From positions 1-24,033 of IMG/VR virus record IMGVR_UViG_3300002835_014123: a DNA stretch of 24,033 nucleotides. One strand, given 5' to 3'. The stretch's first letter is position 1. Each line of letters opens with the position of its first letter. This document shows positions 12,801-22,239 of this stretch, one piece after another. This DNA comes from a virus. The translations under genes were made by a program, and so were the position numbers. The notes under the pieces are model-generated. The model searched no databases. It was given only the letters and a program-made list of their open reading frames with translations, and was not told the origin of the DNA.

Positions 12801-14732
12801 CTATCCCTCTGAGACCGGCTGAGGGGAGGTTCCAAGCTGCTGCTTGCGGGTGAGGAAGCGGAGGCCGGTGATGATGTCCTTGACGCAGTCTCCGTAGTGG
12901 TTGGCCCCGGGGCGGTCGTTCCACCGGGTACGGCCATCCTCGTCGCGCAGGAGCTCCTCGGCACAGAGCTCGGCCACGAACTCGGCATCCTGTCCGACAT
13001 CGGTCGGGAACCAGATCCGGAACCGGCGCTTCTTGAGACCCGCGATGTAGAGGGTGTCCTTGGCATCGCGGTCGTTGTAGGTGAGCTCCTTGAGGTTCCG
13101 CTGGTAGGTCGGCACCTGGTGGTAGCTCCATGCCTTCACCGAGCGCGCGGCCGCTCCTCCGAGTCCGGCCGTCGGAATGAGGCGGCGACCAGGAACGGCG
13201 AGGCAGGCCTTGTAGACATCGCTCTTGCGGAACTTCGCATCGATGAAGCCGCAGCTGATCCGGAAGGGCTTCCCGTCGGGGCCGGGCCATGTCTTGGAGT
13301 TGATGATGTCGGCGATGGAGGAGGGGTCGATTTCCTCGCCCCAGTCGATGATGGCCACGTCCTCGAGGTTATCCCCGACGGCGCCAAGCGACCACTTGGC
13401 GTAGTTCCCTCCGACGTCTGCTCCGAGCACAAGCGCACGCGGCACAAAGGGGACCACTCCACGGCGGTAGGGCTGGCAGGTGTCGCCCTCGCTGGCACCG
13501 GCGATATTGGCAAGGATGTCGGCTTCCTTGGTGGTGTTCACCTCGTTGGCAAATGGGAGGCCGAGGCGGTGGTTGTAGAATTTGGCGATGCCGTCGCCGC
13601 CTTCTTTCTTGGCGTCCAAGTAGTCGAGCACGAGGTGGCCGATCGAGGAGGCGCGGTCGCTGGAAAAGAGATCGCTGATCTGCTGGCTGATGCTGCCCGG
13701 CGAGCCGTGCGAGGTAGGCATCCACCATGCCGTCTGCATGAGGGAGCGCTTGGCCGGCTCGTCGATCCGGTGCTTGCAGGAGGAGCAGGAGAGGTAGGAC
13801 TCGTCGAGGATCCGGAGCTTGTCCCATTCCCCGAGCGGGGTGCGGCAGTGGTCGAAGACGATCTGGGAGGTGGTGATGGTGCGGCGCTGTCCCTCCGGGT
13901 AGGGCGTCGGCAGCAGGACGGTGCGGCCGGATGGGTGGCGGACCTCGAGGAGGTTCTGGAAATCCATGACGGTCTCGATCGTCTGCTCGAAGAAGGAGGG
14001 CCACTGCACGTGCCCGCACGACGGACAGCGGAAGAAATAGTGCTCTTGGTTGCCGCGCTGGTAGGCTTTATGAATCGGTCCGTTGGCAAGCTTGGGCTTG
14101 GAGAGGTTAATCTGCAGTCCGTCCTCGCTGGTCTTTCCACGGGAGGCCATCTCGCGAACGGTATTCTTTGCCCCGTGCTCTTCGATTTCATCCAGGACGC
14201 GGAGCGGTGTCTGCTTGTTGGCGTACTTGCCGGTCGAGAATGAGCCGATGAACCAAATCACCATGTCGCGGAGCCGCGCCACGTAGGTGCCGACGTCATC
14301 GTCATCTCCGGTGAAGATCGTCGGATCGATGTCGGCAAGCGACGGGATGAGGCGATCAACGATGTTCTTGGCCTCCTCACGGGTATCGATGCCGTAGAGC
14401 ACGTTGCAGGGATCGTATTTACAATGCCACCGGATGATGTTCAGCGCGGCTTCGGAGAGTCCCGCCTGCGAGGCTTTCATGGCCGTGTACTCAACAACCT
14501 GTACCCAGATCCACTCGCCACGGCCCCATGACCAGCAGGGCATCACCAGCTCCCGGGCAACCTCTTGCAGCCGGCGGGTCCATGGCGTTTTGACGGATCG
14601 GTATGGACCGGCCTCGGCAGCATCTTTTGAAACAAGCCAGACGTTGGTGTCCGCCCATTCCCAGATGCTCTCGGGAGGCAGCTCCTGGAAGGCCCGGGCG
14701 AAAGCCTCAGGCAGGATGTTGCTCTGAAACAT
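12801..14732 (-). CDS. Terminase large subunit (lambda gpA-like)
   Basis: A 643-aa packaging motor and nuclease of the gpA family. The ATPase has the deviant Walker A MKASQAGLSE (85-94, compare lambda KSARVGYSK) and Walker B PLRVLDEIEE with Asp181-Glu182. Two CxxC pairs typical of the family follow: CPSCGH (236) and CSSCKH (316). The C-terminal RNase-H-like nuclease starts at VLGADVGGNYAKW with likely metal-binding Asp439; a later GFIDAKFRKSDVY supplies another acidic site. The gene overlaps the small subunit by 26 bases. No Shine-Dalgarno site is seen. A gpA-type motor generally goes with cohesive ends or unit-length cutting at cos sites (family knowledge). Confidence 0.93.
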   Translation of the reverse strand: MFQSNILPEAFARAFQELPPESIWEWADTNVWLVSKDAAEAGPYRSVKTPWTRRLQEVARELVMPCWSWGRGEWIWVQVVEYTAMKASQAGLSEAALNIIRWHCKYDPCNVLYGIDTREEAKNIVDRLIPSLADIDPTIFTGDDDDVGTYVARLRDMVIWFIGSFSTGKYANKQTPLRVLDEIEEHGAKNTVREMASRGKTSEDGLQINLSKPKLANGPIHKAYQRGNQEHYFFRCPSCGHVQWPSFFEQTIETVMDFQNLLEVRHPSGRTVLLPTPYPEGQRRTITTSQIVFDHCRTPLGEWDKLRILDESYLSCSSCKHRIDEPAKRSLMQTAWWMPTSHGSPGSISQQISDLFSSDRASSIGHLVLDYLDAKKEGGDGIAKFYNHRLGLPFANEVNTTKEADILANIAGASEGDTCQPYRRGVVPFVPRALVLGADVGGNYAKWSLGAVGDNLEDVAIIDWGEEIDPSSIADIINSKTWPGPDGKPFRISCGFIDAKFRKSDVYKACLAVPGRRLIPTAGLGGAAARSVKAWSYHQVPTYQRNLKELTYNDRDAKDTLYIAGLKKRRFRIWFPTDVGQDAEFVAELCAEELLRDEDGRTRWNDRPGANHYGDCVKDIITGLRFLTRKQQLGTSPQPVSEG

Positions 14733-15405
14733 TGGTGAGGTTACGGAAAATGTGTTCTTCCTGAGAGCGCACCCGCTCGATCGCGGTGACGACTTTGGCT
14801 TTCAACTCCTCAGCCACATCGGGAATCTGTTCGAGCACCATGCGGACCATGTTCTCTCGCATGCTCTTGAGCATCCTGACCGCGGAAGAGGCGTCCTTCT
14901 CGACGACGTCCCGCCGGATCAGCAGGCCGCGTTGCTTGGCCGCCTCGCGCTCCGAGGCCTCGGCCTTGCGCAGCGCGTCCAGTGCCTTCTCATGTTTCTT
15001 GAGGAGTCCATCGACTTCCCCACCGAGTCGGTAGGCACGCTCTAGCTGGGAGTAGACCACCGCCACCAGGGCCCGGGCCTGCACTAAAGCAGCACCCTCG
15101 TTGAGGTTGTACTCTGACAAATCGATAGACTCGACCGGCATCACCGGCATTGGAGCTTTCGGCTCGAGATCCTTGCAGGCCTCGAGGACGGAATCGGGCA
15201 CTCGCCAGGTCTTGTGCTTTGCCCACCATTCCTTGAAAGCCAGTGGCTCGTCAAGAGGGCACGGATCCCCGACTTCCTCCCCATCGGCGAGCCACCGGCG
15301 TACCGTCCTGGTCGTGGCGCCATACCGATCGGACCACTCCTTCAGTTTCTCAGAAGGGATGCCACGGCGGAGGGGCTGGCCGCTCAACTGTAGATTTTCG
15401 ACCAT
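14707..15405 (-). CDS. Terminase small subunit (DNA-binding)
   Basis: A 232-aa protein starting MVENLQLSGQPLRRGIPSEK. Residues 18-45 form a helix-turn-helix (EKLKEWSDRYGATTRTVRRW). The segment EAVLEACK-like to RALVAVVYSQLERAYRLGGE and the following heptads make a coiled coil for oligomerisation; the C-terminus contacts the large subunit in this family. It overlaps the large subunit gene by 26 bases. Directly upstream on the coding strand lies the iteron/hairpin region, a possible recognition site. The AGGGG just before the ATG is too close to be a normal ribosome site. Confidence 0.8.
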   Translation of the reverse strand: MVENLQLSGQPLRRGIPSEKLKEWSDRYGATTRTVRRWLADGEEVGDPCPLDEPLAFKEWWAKHKTWRVPDSVLEACKDLEPKAPMPVMPVESIDLSEYNLNEGAALVQARALVAVVYSQLERAYRLGGEVDGLLKKHEKALDALRKAEASEREAAKQRGLLIRRDVVEKDASSAVRMLKSMRENMVRMVLEQIPDVAEELKAKVVTAIERVRSQEEHIFRNLTNVSEQHPA

Positions 15406-15558
15406 ACCCCTAGGGCCGTGTCAAAATGACAGGAAAAAAAGCGGCGTTCTTGTCGAGAATCTGCGTCGAGTGCGCTCAACCGACATAGTAGGGGACGGAA
15501 TAGAAAAGATTCCTTTGATTTTGAAGGAAAACGGGACGGGACGGGGAATGTGACGAGC

Positions 15559-15654
15559 GATTTCGGGAAATCCGTCAGCGACGGCGATTTCATAAAATCA
15601 GTTACTACCCTATTTCCTCCTTCACTATCCCAGTGAATCTCCAAGACTTTGGAG
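15559..15654. repeat. Cluster of four short inverted repeats
   Basis: GATTTC-GG-GAAATC (15559-15572), CCGTC-AGC-GACGG (15572-15584) and GATTT-CATA-AAATC (15586-15599) lie back to back. CTCCAA-GACT-TTGGAG (15639-15654) follows after a copy of the iteron in inverted orientation. The first and third are related in sequence, suggesting paired protein sites. Confidence 0.6.
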
Positions 15655-15821
15655 AACAATGATTTAAGAGTGGGATAGTCTTGTGGGAATGTCGTTGATA
15701 CTGGGAAAGTCGAGACGGCCGCGGCGGCTCAGGTCGTGGCCCGATGAGGCGATTGGGTGCGGAATGGGATAGTCGAGGCGGCCTATCCCGGGCCTCAGTG
15801 GGATAGTCGAGTGGGATAGTC
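15623..15821. repeat. Iteron-like TGGGATAGTC repeats
   Basis: Perfect TGGGATAGTC units start at 15671, 15765, 15799 and 15812. Variants are TGGGAATGTC (15684) and TGGGAAAGTC (15702). Inverted copies are CACTATCCCA (15623-15632) and CTATCCC (15783-15789). Several continue as CGAG. Two pairs have 13-base spacing (15671/15684 and 15799/15812). The arrangement fits an initiator- or regulator-binding array beside the helicase gene. Confidence 0.75.
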
Positions 15822-15924
15822 GCACGGACCTCGAGGAGGCCCGGACGGCCGCAATGAATCGATGGGTGAGCCAGGGCGCTCTACACGTGGAGAAGGAGCA
15901 GCGACATGATGCCGATCAATAGGA

Positions 15925-15960
15925 AGGCCCTGTGCATGGCCTAAACCTTACACAGGGCCT
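15925..15960. repeat. 10-bp inverted repeat after the helicase gene
   Basis: AGGCCCTGTG (15925-15934) pairs perfectly with CACAGGGCCT (15951-15960) around a 16-base loop. It lies just past the helicase stop codon, where it could end or protect the early transcript, but no T-run follows on the minus strand. Confidence 0.5.
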
Positions 15961-15981
15961 GTCCTTTCACTATCGGCTATC

Positions 15982-17649
15982 CTACCCCTCCACCAGCTCA
16001 ACCACAAAGCTGCGCCAGTTCTTCGATCCTCGGCGGCCGAAGCGTACCTGCCCCACCCCGTCGACGGCCCAGACCTGCCCGGCCTCGTTACCGAGGATCC
16101 TGCCCATGCTGATCCTGCTGGCCCTTGTCAGCTTCTCATCACGGCGCTCGATTTTGTCTACGAAGAGGTCGTTGGCCTCACAGAGCTCGATCACCCGATC
16201 AAACTCAAACTCGGCCGCCTTCGCTGCCTCCTCATCATGGGGGCGCTCATCATCCGACTCGGCCGCCTGGATCTTCTCCACGAGCTCGAGGGCCAGCAGG
16301 CGCACCAGCGTCTTCATGTCCTTGGTCTCATCATCACCGGCCACGACCGACTCAGAACGATCGAGGGGATCGGGAAGACCGGCCGCATGGCAGATCCCTC
16401 CAACCAGCCGGGACCAGGACTCGAAGGAGGCAAGGGAGCGCGGGCCCGCAGGCCTGCCCGATTTGTCCCAGTGCCGCACCAGCGACCAGACCGCCGAGAG
16501 GATGTCAGCCCTCACCTCGGGACGCTTCAGCCATGCATCGTTGATCACGCGGTCGAAAGTCCTGCTCGAAATGTCTACCTGCTCGGTGAAGAGCTCACAG
16601 AACAGGGTACGGCGATCGGCATCACGGTCCACGTTCGGGTGATTAGCCGAGATGTAGATGACGCTCTGCTTGGGAACCTCGAAGCCCATCTGCCCACCCA
16701 TCCGGCGGCCCTTCCACGAGGGCTGAGTCACCCACATGTCCATGGCAGGCGATGCCAACCGCCGCTTCGTATTGTCGAAGAAGAGATAGGCCTCATTAGC
16801 CAGCGCCTCGGTGTCGAGGAGCTTGCGCAGCTCATCCTCATCCTTGCCGAAGAGTATCGACGACGCTTTCCCGTACAGAGCCCAGAGGATTATCTTCACC
16901 AGGAGAGACTTGCCACTGCCCTGACGATTGGCACAGAACAAGAACATCGGGATCAGATCCTCACGCTCGAGCATCCCCAGGGTGAAGGGAGTCAGCAGCG
17001 CCGCGATGAAGACCGAGAGCGCCTGCGAGACCCCGCGCTCATCGCGGCCCGGCATCGGGAACGCGGCCGTCAGATTCGCCAGGAAGGTCACCGCCTCCTC
17101 CGCAGGCATCTCCCGGTACCTGATGTCACTCCCCATGGTCAGAATCCCCGTCTCATGGTCAAAAGAGTCCGGCTGCAGCAGATCGAGGACACCATTGGCA
17201 CGGAGAACCGGGCACGGGACCATATTCACCCGCCAGATCTCCCGCTGCTGATCCTTGAAGTGAGGCGATGCCAGGACACTCTTTGCGTGATCCTTCTTCA
17301 TCGACTCCTTGATCTTGACGAACTCCTCCCCCGACTTCTCCAGCCGGTGAAGGTACGCCAGCTTCTCCGCGTAGGTGAGGAAGGTATCGGGATCCAGCCT
17401 CTCAAGGCGATTGTGCCGCCGGTCCAGATACACGGGCAGATCCCCGCGGACATAGACACCATTTGTCGAGCAGACCTGCCCCAGCTGGCGGGCAAACTCG
17501 CTGATGTAGACATTGCGGCCCGGCAGACGGATCGGCGGCAGCGAGAGGACCGGATCATGACCGGCCGCTGGCACCTCGGGAGCCTCGGGAGCGTCGATCA
17601 CACCAGCCGCCTGCAGGACCGCATTGGTTAGGTCGGCTTGGTTACTCAC
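15982..17649 (-). CDS. P-loop replicative helicase/ATPase (SF3-like)
   Basis: A 555-aa protein. I chose the GTG at 17649 over an upstream TTG at 17664 because GGGGAGG lies 6 bases before the GTG. Motifs by residue from that start: Walker A NRQGSGKSLL (Lys about 247), Walker B YLFFDN (Asp about 292), then VIYISANHPN (Asn about 336, sensor-like) and DADRRT (Arg pair about 346-347, possible arginine finger). This order fits a superfamily-3 or P4-type phage helicase that opens the origin and works with a primase; the primase is encoded two genes upstream. The N-terminal 200 residues are of unknown fold. The GTG overlaps the preceding stop (GTGAGTAA). Last gene of the early operon. Confidence 0.8.
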   Translation of the reverse strand: MSNQADLTNAVLQAAGVIDAPEAPEVPAAGHDPVLSLPPIRLPGRNVYISEFARQLGQVCSTNGVYVRGDLPVYLDRRHNRLERLDPDTFLTYAEKLAYLHRLEKSGEEFVKIKESMKKDHAKSVLASPHFKDQQREIWRVNMVPCPVLRANGVLDLLQPDSFDHETGILTMGSDIRYREMPAEEAVTFLANLTAAFPMPGRDERGVSQALSVFIAALLTPFTLGMLEREDLIPMFLFCANRQGSGKSLLVKIILWALYGKASSILFGKDEDELRKLLDTEALANEAYLFFDNTKRRLASPAMDMWVTQPSWKGRRMGGQMGFEVPKQSVIYISANHPNVDRDADRRTLFCELFTEQVDISSRTFDRVINDAWLKRPEVRADILSAVWSLVRHWDKSGRPAGPRSLASFESWSRLVGGICHAAGLPDPLDRSESVVAGDDETKDMKTLVRLLALELVEKIQAAESDDERPHDEEAAKAAEFEFDRVIELCEANDLFVDKIERRDEKLTRASRISMGRILGNEAGQVWAVDGVGQVRFGRRGSKNWRSFVVELVEG

Positions 17650-18169
17650 TGGAAGCCTCCCCAATTGAGCCTTCGATCGCTTCTAGCTTTTTCTCAAGTT
17701 CTTCAACTTCCGCATAGTTAGCATTCCATGTCTTTGTAATTTCAAGTGCCCGGCGTGCAATCCTGCAGAGCTTCTGTTTTTCGGCTTCTAAGTGTTCCGA
17801 ATGAGCATCGGCTTCCGTAAGAGCAGCGTAGCGTTCGTCTAGCCATCCCCGCGCGTCTTTAAGCTGCTCCTTGGTCTTGTTGTGCGCCTCGCGCTCGCGG
17901 CAGAGCTCCGATCTCTGCTCATTTTCTGGATAAAGGAAGCTAATCACCGACCCGCAAGCTCGCTGCTTCAAGATTGCCTTTCCTGAGGGGGTTGGATATC
18001 CGGAAACATAAATCGGCTCAGACCCGCAGTGAGGGCATGTGTTGGGAATCACCGGTCGACTTTGGGGACGTGATCCCGTGCAGAGTTCTACGTCATGAAT
18101 CGTAATTTTTCCGGAGAATGGGTCTTTTACTTGCGCACCGCACTTTGGGCATTTCGTTTCGTCGCTCAC
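17642..18169 (-). CDS. Zinc-ribbon/coiled-coil protein
   Basis: A 175-aa protein with a GTG start preceded by GGAGG at 6 bases. CPKCG (residues 7-11) opens the chain and CPHCGSEPIYVSGYPT lies near residue 45. The latter resembles small phage zinc ribbons of the Lar type, although the partner CxxC is reduced to a single Cys (RACGS). From about residue 80 a long charged coiled coil runs to the C-terminus. It sits between primase and helicase with 4- and 8-base overlaps, so a replication or host-takeover accessory role is plausible. Base composition is somewhat more A+T-rich than its neighbours. Function unknown. Confidence 0.75.
   Translation of the reverse strand: MSDETKCPKCGAQVKDPFSGKITIHDVELCTGSRPQSRPVIPNTCPHCGSEPIYVSGYPTPSGKAILKQRACGSVISFLYPENEQRSELCREREAHNKTKEQLKDARGWLDERYAALTEADAHSEHLEAEKQKLCRIARRALEITKTWNANYAEVEELEKKLEAIEGSIGEASSE
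17656..17662 (-). promoter_or_regulatory. Ribosome-binding site fixing the helicase start
   Basis: GGGGAGG on the minus strand, 6 bases before the GTG at 17649. It lies inside the coding end of the preceding gene and inside the alternative TTG-initiated frame, so it favours the GTG start. Confidence 0.75.
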
Positions 18170-19416
18170 TTCGCACCTCCTACCATCAGATCCCCGATCT
18201 CTCGGGCAGCAGACTTGCAGACAGGTGACTGGGAAGCCACATGGGAGAGACGGCGATGGATGGCCCGCATCTCATGAGCCGGGAGATCCATCAGCTCCAG
18301 GCCACGGGAGCGCACCAGCCCCTCGAGGGTGGCGACGATGTCGCGGCGCGGGATCATCTCGCAGATCGGCCGCGGAGCGGGCTCGCGGCAGACATAGAGC
18401 AGCTTCTGGAGCTGCGGACGGGGGAATGGTAGATAGGTTTTTTTCATTGGTTTTTCAGAGTCATGCGATTGCTCCACCACGTCCTTGCCCAGGCGCAGTG
18501 AATTAGGGAGCCGTGTCAAGCGGACCCCGGAGAGAGCGCCACGATCGGCGCCGAGAGTGACGAGCCCCTTGAGGATCGCGGCCTTGTTCCGATCCCAGTC
18601 GGAGGCATTCACCGCATCCACGCGGATCAGCACGTGGATCGAGCGGCCGCCGCTCGTGTAGATGGCGGCGATCCTGAGCGGCAGCTGGACGACGGCACCC
18701 ATCCAGTCCCGGGCATCAGCCTGATCGGATTCGAGCACCAGATAGCGCCACGCCACCACGCACTCGGCGATCCGACGGGAGAGCTTCGAGGGATCCTTGC
18801 CGCGGGGATTCACACGGGCCACCCCGTCTACCGGCTGAGCCAGATACCAGACCCCGCGAGGCCCCTCCAAGGGTAGCTCCTTGACATCCGGCCAGAGCGC
18901 ATCCACTTGGGAGTACTCATTTAGGAAGATCAGCACCTTCTCCCCGCGCTCAGGATAGTACAGGGCCGATAGGAACTCATGGGTCGAGCAGCATGTCGGA
19001 TCAAGATCCGAGCGATCGGCAAGCCAGGCGGCATTCACCTTGTCCACCCAGGGAGCGGCAAAGCGGGCCAGCTTTGCGGCGTCGAAGGAGGGAGCAGGCT
19101 CCGCCGGCCGCGCGGCCGGGAGCGATCCCGGCGCATGATGCGGCGTGTAGGAGTCGGAGTCCTTCAGCAGATAGCCCGTTGAGGAAGTAACCGTGTTGAC
19201 CTTGTGCAGCAGCTCATGCTCCTTCCAGGGAGGAGAGCAGCGCTCATTGTACTCCCGCAGGATGGCAAGGGCATCCTCCTTCGAGAGAGCGAAGCCATCG
19301 ACGAGCGCCTTCGCCACGGCGAAGGTCGCCGCGTGACCATTGGCACCCGAGACGGCCGCATCCATCTTCGAGACATACTTCTGGGCCCGTTCATAAACCG
19401 AGAGCTTGGCACTCAC
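18166..19416 (-). CDS. Replication primase (AEP-like with PriCT-like N-terminus)
   Basis: A 416-aa protein with a GTG start in a GTGA overlap and GGAGG 7 bases ahead. The N-terminus (about 5-75: GHAATFAVAKALVDGFALSK, YNERCSPPWKEHELLHKV) matches the PriCT-type helical domain that usually lies C-terminal of primases. The central domain carries archaeo-eukaryotic primase-like motifs: YLVLESDQ (Glu229, Asp231) for metal binding, SGGRSIH (255-261) for the sxH motif, and VRLTRLPNSLR (298-308) for the third motif. It would lay primers for phage DNA synthesis together with the helicase downstream. No polymerase gene is seen, so host polymerase is probably used. The reversed domain order is notable. 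Confidence 0.75.
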   Translation of the reverse strand: MSAKLSVYERAQKYVSKMDAAVSGANGHAATFAVAKALVDGFALSKEDALAILREYNERCSPPWKEHELLHKVNTVTSSTGYLLKDSDSYTPHHAPGSLPAARPAEPAPSFDAAKLARFAAPWVDKVNAAWLADRSDLDPTCCSTHEFLSALYYPERGEKVLIFLNEYSQVDALWPDVKELPLEGPRGVWYLAQPVDGVARVNPRGKDPSKLSRRIAECVVAWRYLVLESDQADARDWMGAVVQLPLRIAAIYTSGGRSIHVLIRVDAVNASDWDRNKAAILKGLVTLGADRGALSGVRLTRLPNSLRLGKDVVEQSHDSEKPMKKTYLPFPRPQLQKLLYVCREPAPRPICEMIPRRDIVATLEGLVRSRGLELMDLPAHEMRAIHRRLSHVASQSPVCKSAAREIGDLMVGGAK

Positions 19417-20060: not shown

Positions 20061-20500
20061 TTTCCACCTCCCGCGAGCCAGAGCTCGTGTTGCATGTCGC
20101 CGATTTGAGCCTGCTCAACAGCCGTGATTTCCTTCATGGTTAGGAGCGGACGCTTCACCAGACCCTTCGTCAGACCGATCGCCGAGCGCACACGGCAGGC
20201 CGGGAAGCGCAGCAGCGAGCAGTAATAGTCGAGGTCCTTACCAGAGAGGAAAAGGATGAGCGACTTCACCTGCTCCGCCGTTGCGTAGTTAAGGGGATGA
20301 TTCGGGACGGTGGCCGAGTTGTACTTCCGATAGAAGCGGTACTCCCGCACCTCCGTCCCAGCGACGATACCCAGCTCCCGCAGCCGCACGTAGTCGCGCA
20401 CGGCCTTCAGGAGAACAGCAAAGGCCAGCTGCACCATATTCTCAGTCTTGTATTCGGTGGCCATGAGTGCGGAGCAGTTGTCGTAGTGGAGCGAGATCAC
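20057..20500 (-). CDS. Early protein of unknown function (147 aa)
   Basis: A 147-aa protein from a GTG that overlaps the ParB-like stop as GTGA, with GGAGG 7 bases ahead. It is helical, with EYRFYRKYNSATVPNHPLNY in the middle and LSGKDLDYYCSLLRFPACRV later, a pattern unlike any enzyme I recognise. It lies between the ParB-like gene and a small basic protein gene. No membrane or zinc features. Confident as a gene; function open. Confidence 0.8.
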   Translation of the reverse strand: MISLHYDNCSALMATEYKTENMVQLAFAVLLKAVRDYVRLRELGIVAGTEVREYRFYRKYNSATVPNHPLNYATAEQVKSLILFLSGKDLDYYCSLLRFPACRVRSAIGLTKGLVKRPLLTMKEITAVEQAQIGDMQHELWLAGGGK

Positions 20501-22239
20501 GCTTCCACCTCCTCGCTTGCGGCGACCTTCTTGCCGGCCTTCTTCTTTTCCTTGGAAGGCTTGGACGCCTCGACGAGCGCCTTGAGCTCATCGGCATGGG
20601 AGGCTTTCACCCGCTCCTCGATTCCCTTGGGATCGATGGAGAGGGACTCTAGCACCTTGAGCAGCAGCCCCTCGAGAGGGGTCTCACCGTAGTTGCATTC
20701 ACGCTGGACATCATGAGCCATGAGCAGGATCAGCACATAGGGAGCGAGGGAGACCGCATCACCGACGGGGTACTTCATCAGCTCTGAGCGCAGCGTCTCC
20801 TCCGAATCATCCGGCAGGCCTAGCCACTTGGAGACAAGCGACAGGCTAGTGATACCCTGCTGGGCCAGCGCCGCATCGAGCAGACGCGGCCAGAGGACCG
20901 AGTCATCGACCCTCCCTTGGTGAAACTGCATCACGATCTCATTGAAGGCCTCATGGGCCATCTCGTGGCGGATGACCTGCTCGAGCTTCTCCATGGCGCG
21001 ATCACTCTTCTCTGCCTCCCGCTGGGCAGGGGTCTCATCCCCGTCACCCCGGGAGCGCAGCGGGGAGACCTCCCCGCTCTTCTTGGCCTGCAGCCGGATC
21101 GCCGCCACGGCCTGACGCCTGTCTACTACCTCGAGGGCCTTCCCCTTGTCGCGGATCACGACGATCTCGGGCTTCACCTCGACCGAGCCGAGGAGCTTCT
21201 TCCAGGTCGGAGGCTTCCCAGAGTGATCGGCGAGATCCTTGGCAGGCACATCATCCTTGAGGAGCACATAGTTGGAGCTCCAGACAAGGCCACCCCAGGG
21301 ATTAAGCTCCTTCTCAGCCTCACCATCCGAGAGCACCTTCTTTCCGGCCTTGAGCGCCTCGGCGCGGATGTTCTCCCAGTTGGCATCCACCTTCATCGAG
21401 TGGCAGCCGGGGTGCATGCAGAGATTCTTGGAGCCCTCCGTGGTCTCGTCGGCCTCCTTGGCATTCCCCGAGAGCCACGGGCAGTCGCTGCAGGCACCGC
21501 CGTGGAGGCGGTTCCCCATCTCATCGGACTCAAGCGGCACCAGATCGGGATCCTCCTTGTCGAAGGGGGCGCTCTTCAGATCGATCATGTAATGCTCCCG
21601 GATATGGGAGGCCGCCTTGCGGGCCGTGAGAGGCTCCTCCTCATAGGTGGGATGGAGCACCTCATCGAGGGCCTTCTGCCGCAGGGGAGCTGAGGGGATC
21701 GATGCCACGAGCCGAGCCACCGAGAAGGAGAGCTCCCCCGAGCGCATCGCCTCACGGGCGGCATCTGGCAGCTTCCTCAGGGAGAGCCGCTGATGGATGT
21801 AGTGGATGCTCTTGCTGATCGCCTCAGCCAGGGACTCCACCGAGTGACGCTTGCGGTCACCGTCGGAGAGCTCCAGGAGGGCCGCGTAGCTATCGGCCTC
21901 CTCGAGGACGTCGAGATCACGCCGCTGCAGATTCTCAATCAGCTGCAGCTCGACCACATCATTCTCGGAGAGATCATCGCGGACGATCACCGGCACCTCG
22001 GAGAGACCGGCCTCACGGGAGGCCCGCAGGCGGCACTCACCGGCGATCAGCTCAAAGCGCATCCCGACCGGCGGCGGAAGATCCTCCCGGGAACGGACCA
22101 GCAGCGGCTGAATGATCCCGCGCGAGGCGATCGAGGAGGCCAGCTCCTTGATATACTCCTCGGGGAAGTGGCGACGTGGATTAGTGGGACTCGGGGCGAT
22201 CTCCTCGATGGAGACAAATGTGAAAGTAGGATGTTTCAT
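20497..22239 (-). CDS. ParB-like protein with central cysteine cluster
   Basis: A 580-aa protein. Residues about 8-110 are a ParB/Spo0J N-terminal domain: IAPSPTNPRRHF, the GECRLRAS motif (67-74) that binds nucleotide in this family, and IENLQRRDLD (101-110). An HTH of KorB/ParB type follows (about 130-180, SVESLAEAISKSIHYIHQRL). Next comes CSDCPW (250-255) and CMHPGC (274-279), a four-cysteine set likely to bind zinc. The C-terminal half is helical and ends in Lys-rich KPSKEKKKAGKK. The protein is much longer than chromosomal ParB. No ParA is visible, so roles in replication control, DNA binding or plasmid-like maintenance are all possible. It lacks a Shine-Dalgarno site (A-rich leader). Confidence 0.85.
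   Translation of the reverse strand: MKHPTFTFVSIEEIAPSPTNPRRHFPEEYIKELASSIASRGIIQPLLVRSREDLPPPVGMRFELIAGECRLRASREAGLSEVPVIVRDDLSENDVVELQLIENLQRRDLDVLEEADSYAALLELSDGDRKRHSVESLAEAISKSIHYIHQRLSLRKLPDAAREAMRSGELSFSVARLVASIPSAPLRQKALDEVLHPTYEEEPLTARKAASHIREHYMIDLKSAPFDKEDPDLVPLESDEMGNRLHGGACSDCPWLSGNAKEADETTEGSKNLCMHPGCHSMKVDANWENIRAEALKAGKKVLSDGEAEKELNPWGGLVWSSNYVLLKDDVPAKDLADHSGKPPTWKKLLGSVEVKPEIVVIRDKGKALEVVDRRQAVAAIRLQAKKSGEVSPLRSRGDGDETPAQREAEKSDRAMEKLEQVIRHEMAHEAFNEIVMQFHQGRVDDSVLWPRLLDAALAQQGITSLSLVSKWLGLPDDSEETLRSELMKYPVGDAVSLAPYVLILLMAHDVQRECNYGETPLEGLLLKVLESLSIDPKGIEERVKASHADELKALVEASKPSKEKKKAGKKVAASEEVEA

Follow-up and report, generated by a model that had tools for sequence, protein, structure and literature searches.

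The array of short repeats at positions 15623-15821 (minus strand) of the analysed window, i.e. the whole stretch of 24,033 bases deposited in IMG/VR, is probably the replication origin of this phage, or the part of that origin to which the initiator binds. Sequence comparisons with related phages form the basis of this assignment: the motif of the array appears to change with the helicase clade and to stay the same when the terminase is swapped. The most likely initiator is the helicase encoded beside the array: its adjoining position fits this role, and, as indirect evidence, the motif class tracks helicase identity. A predicted cos site of the lambda/N15 type separates the array from the small terminase gene (terS), so that array and cos would be two distinct elements.

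The iteron array and its genomic context

Nearly all genes of the window are read on the minus strand, in the order ParB-like protein, primase, helicase, array, terS, terL and lambda-type portal. The ParB-like protein (20497-22239) has N-terminal and HTH domains and was also found in the related genomes G001, G003 and G007. The primase (phrog_2597; 18166-19416, minus strand) is the upstream partner of the candidate initiator, a DUF5906-like AAA+ helicase with the Walker A motif NRQGSGKSL (15982-17664, minus strand). Downstream lie terS (phrog_57, small terminase; 14707-15405, minus strand) and terL of the GpA (lambda) family (12801-14732, minus strand). The array lies in the gap bounded by the helicase stop (15982) and the start of terS (15405).

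Exact copies of TGGGATAGTC begin at 15671, 15765, 15799 and 15812 (plus strand), with variant units at 15684 (two mismatches) and 15702 (one mismatch) and inverted units at 15623 (one mismatch) and 15781 (two mismatches). Two pairs, 15671/15684 and 15799/15812, have a start-to-start spacing of 13 nt. These positions bear out in every detail the counts given in the initial annotation (four perfect, two variant and two inverted units, two 13-base pairs). The motif search of the full element that it had proposed found the exact word confined to the array, with no further copy in the 24,033-base record. In the sense of the genes the unit reads GACTATCCCA(C), and it is non-palindromic. A 10-mer repeated four times within 210 bp occurred in one of 200 first-order Markov sequences of equal length, and no other 10-mer is repeated in this way elsewhere in the window. 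Far stronger support for the reality of the array than this chance test comes from its conserved position, as G001-G004 and G007 carry an array at the corresponding site.

A hairpin, TCTCCAA-n-TTGGAGA (15638-15655, minus strand), is placed between the opposed iterons at 15671 and 15623; its DNA fold z-score of -1.95 is modest, and CTCCAA-n-TTGGAG or a one-base variant is also present in G001, G003, G004 and G007. The unstranded AT-rich stretch at 15587-15646 has a GC content of 37%, versus 60% for the window, and belongs to the lowest 0.6% of its 60-mers. The region thus has what is looked for in an origin of the iteron type, namely several direct short repeats within a small non-coding region and an AT-rich stretch. 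No DnaA box was found in the window, and Rfam gave no match.

The same gap contains a 15-nt inverted repeat, AGGCCCTGTGCATGG / CCTTACACAGGGCCT, at 15925-15960, just 3' of the helicase gene and absent from the terminator scan listing. An 18-codon frame, MHRAFLLIGIMSLLLLHV (15881-15937, minus strand, read by eye), resembles a truncated 5' part of the short, lipoprotein-like gene located in the corresponding gap of G001 and G003.

A predicted cos site in the gap between helicase and terS

The initial annotation overlooked the putative cos site, which comprises three elements on the minus strand. A cosQ-like GGAATCT (15507-15513) is located 33 nt before cosN, a distance of 31-33 nt in the relatives (cosN being placed by homology where needed). 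Homology to the contig ends of relatives predicts cosN itself at 15469-15480, with the 12-nt 5' overhang GTTGAGCGCACT; the window contig reads through the site, and its cosN is the homologue of these ends. The R3-like palindrome TGTCATTTTGACA (15419-15431), which covers bp 50-62 as counted from the left end, is a candidate TerS site, and the terS start codon follows at bp 76. TTGACA is found at bp 57 in six genomes (the window, G001, G004, L235, L252 and G022) and elsewhere in G007, L253, L258, L259 and L266, for which the cosN positions are partly estimated.

The prediction of cosN relies on the ends of related contigs. Both ends of G001 (31,085 bp) fall in this gap and carry the exact 12-nt terminal repeat GTTGAGCGGGTG, while G022 (29,109 bp) has the 12-nt terminal repeat CTAATTTGTCCT, with the array at one end and terS toward the other. 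The exact repeats of these two relatives correspond to the 12-nt staggered ends of a lambda-type cos, and they are explained by a 12-nt overhang, which we infer to be 5', filled in when the libraries were prepared. In four further contigs, an end falls on, or at most one base from, an edge of the homologous 12 nt: L234 begins with GTTGAACAGTCT and L233 exactly 12 nt later; the right end of G003 is the homologous cosN base, its left end starting short of cosN; and G023/L256 stops 44 nt past the beginning of GGAATCT, which is one base off the expected position, and its ends share no 12-nt overlap.

Two further observations concern cos-related sequences. At its 5' end (15384-15405), terS includes CAGTTGAGCGG, which matches the cosN region of G001 over 11 nt. 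In the Akkermansia phage Moulinsart (L018, about 318-365), a laboratory phage, GGAATCTCTTT is present and a cosN is predicted near GCTTGGGTGACT; the published sequence is a linear record whose ends lie elsewhere.

The array motif and the helicase

Alignment of the helicase yielded 29 loci, and 16 records, including the window, were compared between the helicase stop and the GGAATCT element. All 16 keep the layout helicase stop - iterons - cosQ-like element - cosN, with 3-9 motif copies per record versus about 0-0.5 expected. On visual inspection, the motifs were sorted into five or more classes. The class ACTATCCCA unites the window, G001, G003, G004, G007 and L264, and L266 has an intermediate, mixed form related to it. 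The class ACTCGTCAC or ACTCGCCAC is represented by L235, L248, L252, L253 and L255, TGGTCAC by L256 and L258, ATCGGCACC by L259, and TGCAGA, a weak class of three copies, by L261.

Helicase identity separates these classes completely (same-class pairs 42-95%, different-class pairs 22-40%; AUC 1.0, permutation p 0.0005), whereas the corresponding ranges for TerL overlap (22-88% versus 19-52%; AUC 0.62, permutation p 0.057), it being understood that permutation removes relatedness only in part. Individual pairs dissociate in both directions: G007 shares the motif of the window at a TerL identity of 23%, and L252 has a different motif at 52%. Primase identity gave an AUC of 0.93; the primase travels with the helicase, a point that we counted against the assignment of the array as an origin. 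Three parts of the helicase, tested separately, reached an AUC of 0.99 each, and the DNA-reading domain is therefore not singled out by these data.

A DUF5906 match was obtained for 11 of the 15 helicase relatives (best E 6e-6); the helicase of the window is itself below the Pfam cut-off for this domain, and in hhalign it matches P4 alpha weakly, over the AAA+ part. Its predicted structure was set aside, as pLDDT values of 36 for the whole protein and 55 for the C-terminal part are too low for use or search, or for assigning a DNA-binding domain. Sequence searches of the PDB gave nothing credible for either the helicase or TerS, and alignment of the helicase against genome contigs revealed no relative.

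No array precedes terS in G005, G006 and L237-L240, in which the terminase is present (TerS about 29-34%) and the helicase was undetected. The helicase relatives L260, L262 and L263, as well as the Akkermansia phages, have no array at this place, and L257 has no clear one. G007 (L016) is an apparent natural recombinant, in which a replication module of the window type, the array and a cosN-like sequence are joined to a remote terminase, with the junction at or near cosN.

The array word was also searched for in other DNA. Paired ACTATCCCA was found in 48 IMG/VR stretches, against 16 for the reversed-word control, one of which was an array. The other ACTATCCCA arrays belong to phages with no helicase relative in the record and with weak terminase similarity, and they may be coincidental. 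In the genome collection, the 112 stretches found were mostly chance-like or simple tandem repeats. Direct and inverted ACTATCCCA arrays, which may reflect either coincidence or a shared factor, were seen in the further unrelated phages L066, L073 and L086. The unrelated phages L045, L048, L052, L062, L063, L078, L079 and L091 carry arrays of CCGTGGGATAGTAAA (common 9-mer TGGGATAGT), which often adjoin a gene of about 220-240 aa; three of these loci have a GpA-like terminase.

Comparison with known replication and packaging sites

The closest counterparts of the array are the crr of phage P4 and the origin of pRN1. In P4, the annotated crr has ori type 1 repeats in both orientations, which are bound by alpha and likewise lie beside the 3' end of the alpha gene. 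However, alpha combines primase, helicase and origin-binding domains in a single protein, while the window has separate primase and helicase genes, and the crr words are TGTTCAC/GTTCACC as opposed to GACTATCCCA. Since the array differs from P4 in both respects, the single alpha polypeptide and the repeat sequence, we liken it to P4 crr but do not class it as such. In pRN1, the origin is located directly 3' of the primase/SF3-helicase replication gene and has a stem-loop (PMC4234260). It requires a stem-loop of about 100 nt rather than iterons (PMC4234260), whereas the hairpin of the window is small.

The predicted cos site resembles those of lambda and N15 in the order and spacing of its cosQ-like, cosN and R3-like elements, in the predicted 12-nt staggered cut, in the position of terS just downstream and in the GpA terminase. 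The R3 site of lambda spans bp 50-65; in N15, R3 occurs once and terS starts at bp 89 (PMC9026076), compared with bp 76 in the window. In lambda DE3, GGGTCCT is placed 30 nt before the annotated cos, compared with 33 nt for GGAATCT here. On the other hand, all three sequences (cosQ, cosN and R3) differ in the window, where we saw a single R3-like element and found no R2/R1 of the lambda type. Among open-licence papers, we found none describing this arrangement of array and cos.

Possible functions of the array

The initial annotation considered the array to be the replication origin or a site bound by the ParB-like protein, the helicase or the small terminase. An origin next to the helicase gene is favoured by the motif, which follows the helicase and is kept on a terminase swap. 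Binding of TerS, our own initial idea, was dropped because of the coupling of motif and helicase and the separate R3-like element. A site of the cosB type, at which TerS on the iterons at the right end guides the cutting of cosN, would suit both the proximity of the array to cosN (about 140-350 bp) and the phrog_57 assignment of TerS. We nevertheless consider it unlikely: the motif does not track TerL (AUC 0.62), lambda has its cosB on the other flank of cosN, and a better candidate for TerS is the R3-like palindrome, which lies across cosN on the terS side, at the distance of lambda R3, with TTGACA at the same position in six genomes. A regulatory site (operator or activator) that acts on transcription of the late genes, from terS onwards, and is bound by a regulator from the replication module seems no more probable. 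Such a site would be well placed between replication and late genes of the same direction, but a scan of 15380-16000 for promoters of the sigma-70 type found none, the array is beyond cosN as seen from terS, and the spacing, inverted copies and hairpin are better suited to an origin.

Still less credible is a centromere-like role of the array, with binding by the ParB-like protein, even though this protein, with its N-terminal and HTH domains, is encoded in the window and in G001, G003 and G007. The unit lacks a palindromic form, and ParB_N was undetected in the array-bearing G018, G019, G022 and G026, evidence that is weak for some of these because they are fragments. It was likewise undetected in G027, G028 and G029, several of the seven records being fragments. 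The ParB-like protein is disfavoured as a general account of the array by the negative results for G022 and G026. A further, improbable suggestion is that origin and cos act together as a single composite switch, in which the initiator sits on the iterons within 400 bp of cosN and governs cleavage at cos, so coupling replication to packaging, the arrangement being kept across a wide phage group while the iteron word drifts with the helicase.

For the array as a replication origin, we propose that the GACTATCCCAC iterons are bound by a protein of the replication module, with the DUF5906-like helicase of the adjacent upstream gene as the most likely candidate. To one side the iterons form direct pairs, and copies of opposed orientation flank the AT-rich hairpin. 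A helicase ring would then be loaded at the array, the strands would open, and the neighbouring primase would start synthesis; initiator binding, unwinding and origin activity are thus all inferred to take place here. The lambda/N15-type cos would adjoin this origin but remain separate from it.

For a little-known group of phages, whose relatives include Akkermansia phages, these results predict an origin, its initiator and a cos site with cut positions defined to the base. Moreover, the group offers at least five natural pairs of iteron and helicase, with which the residues that read the iterons could be mapped.
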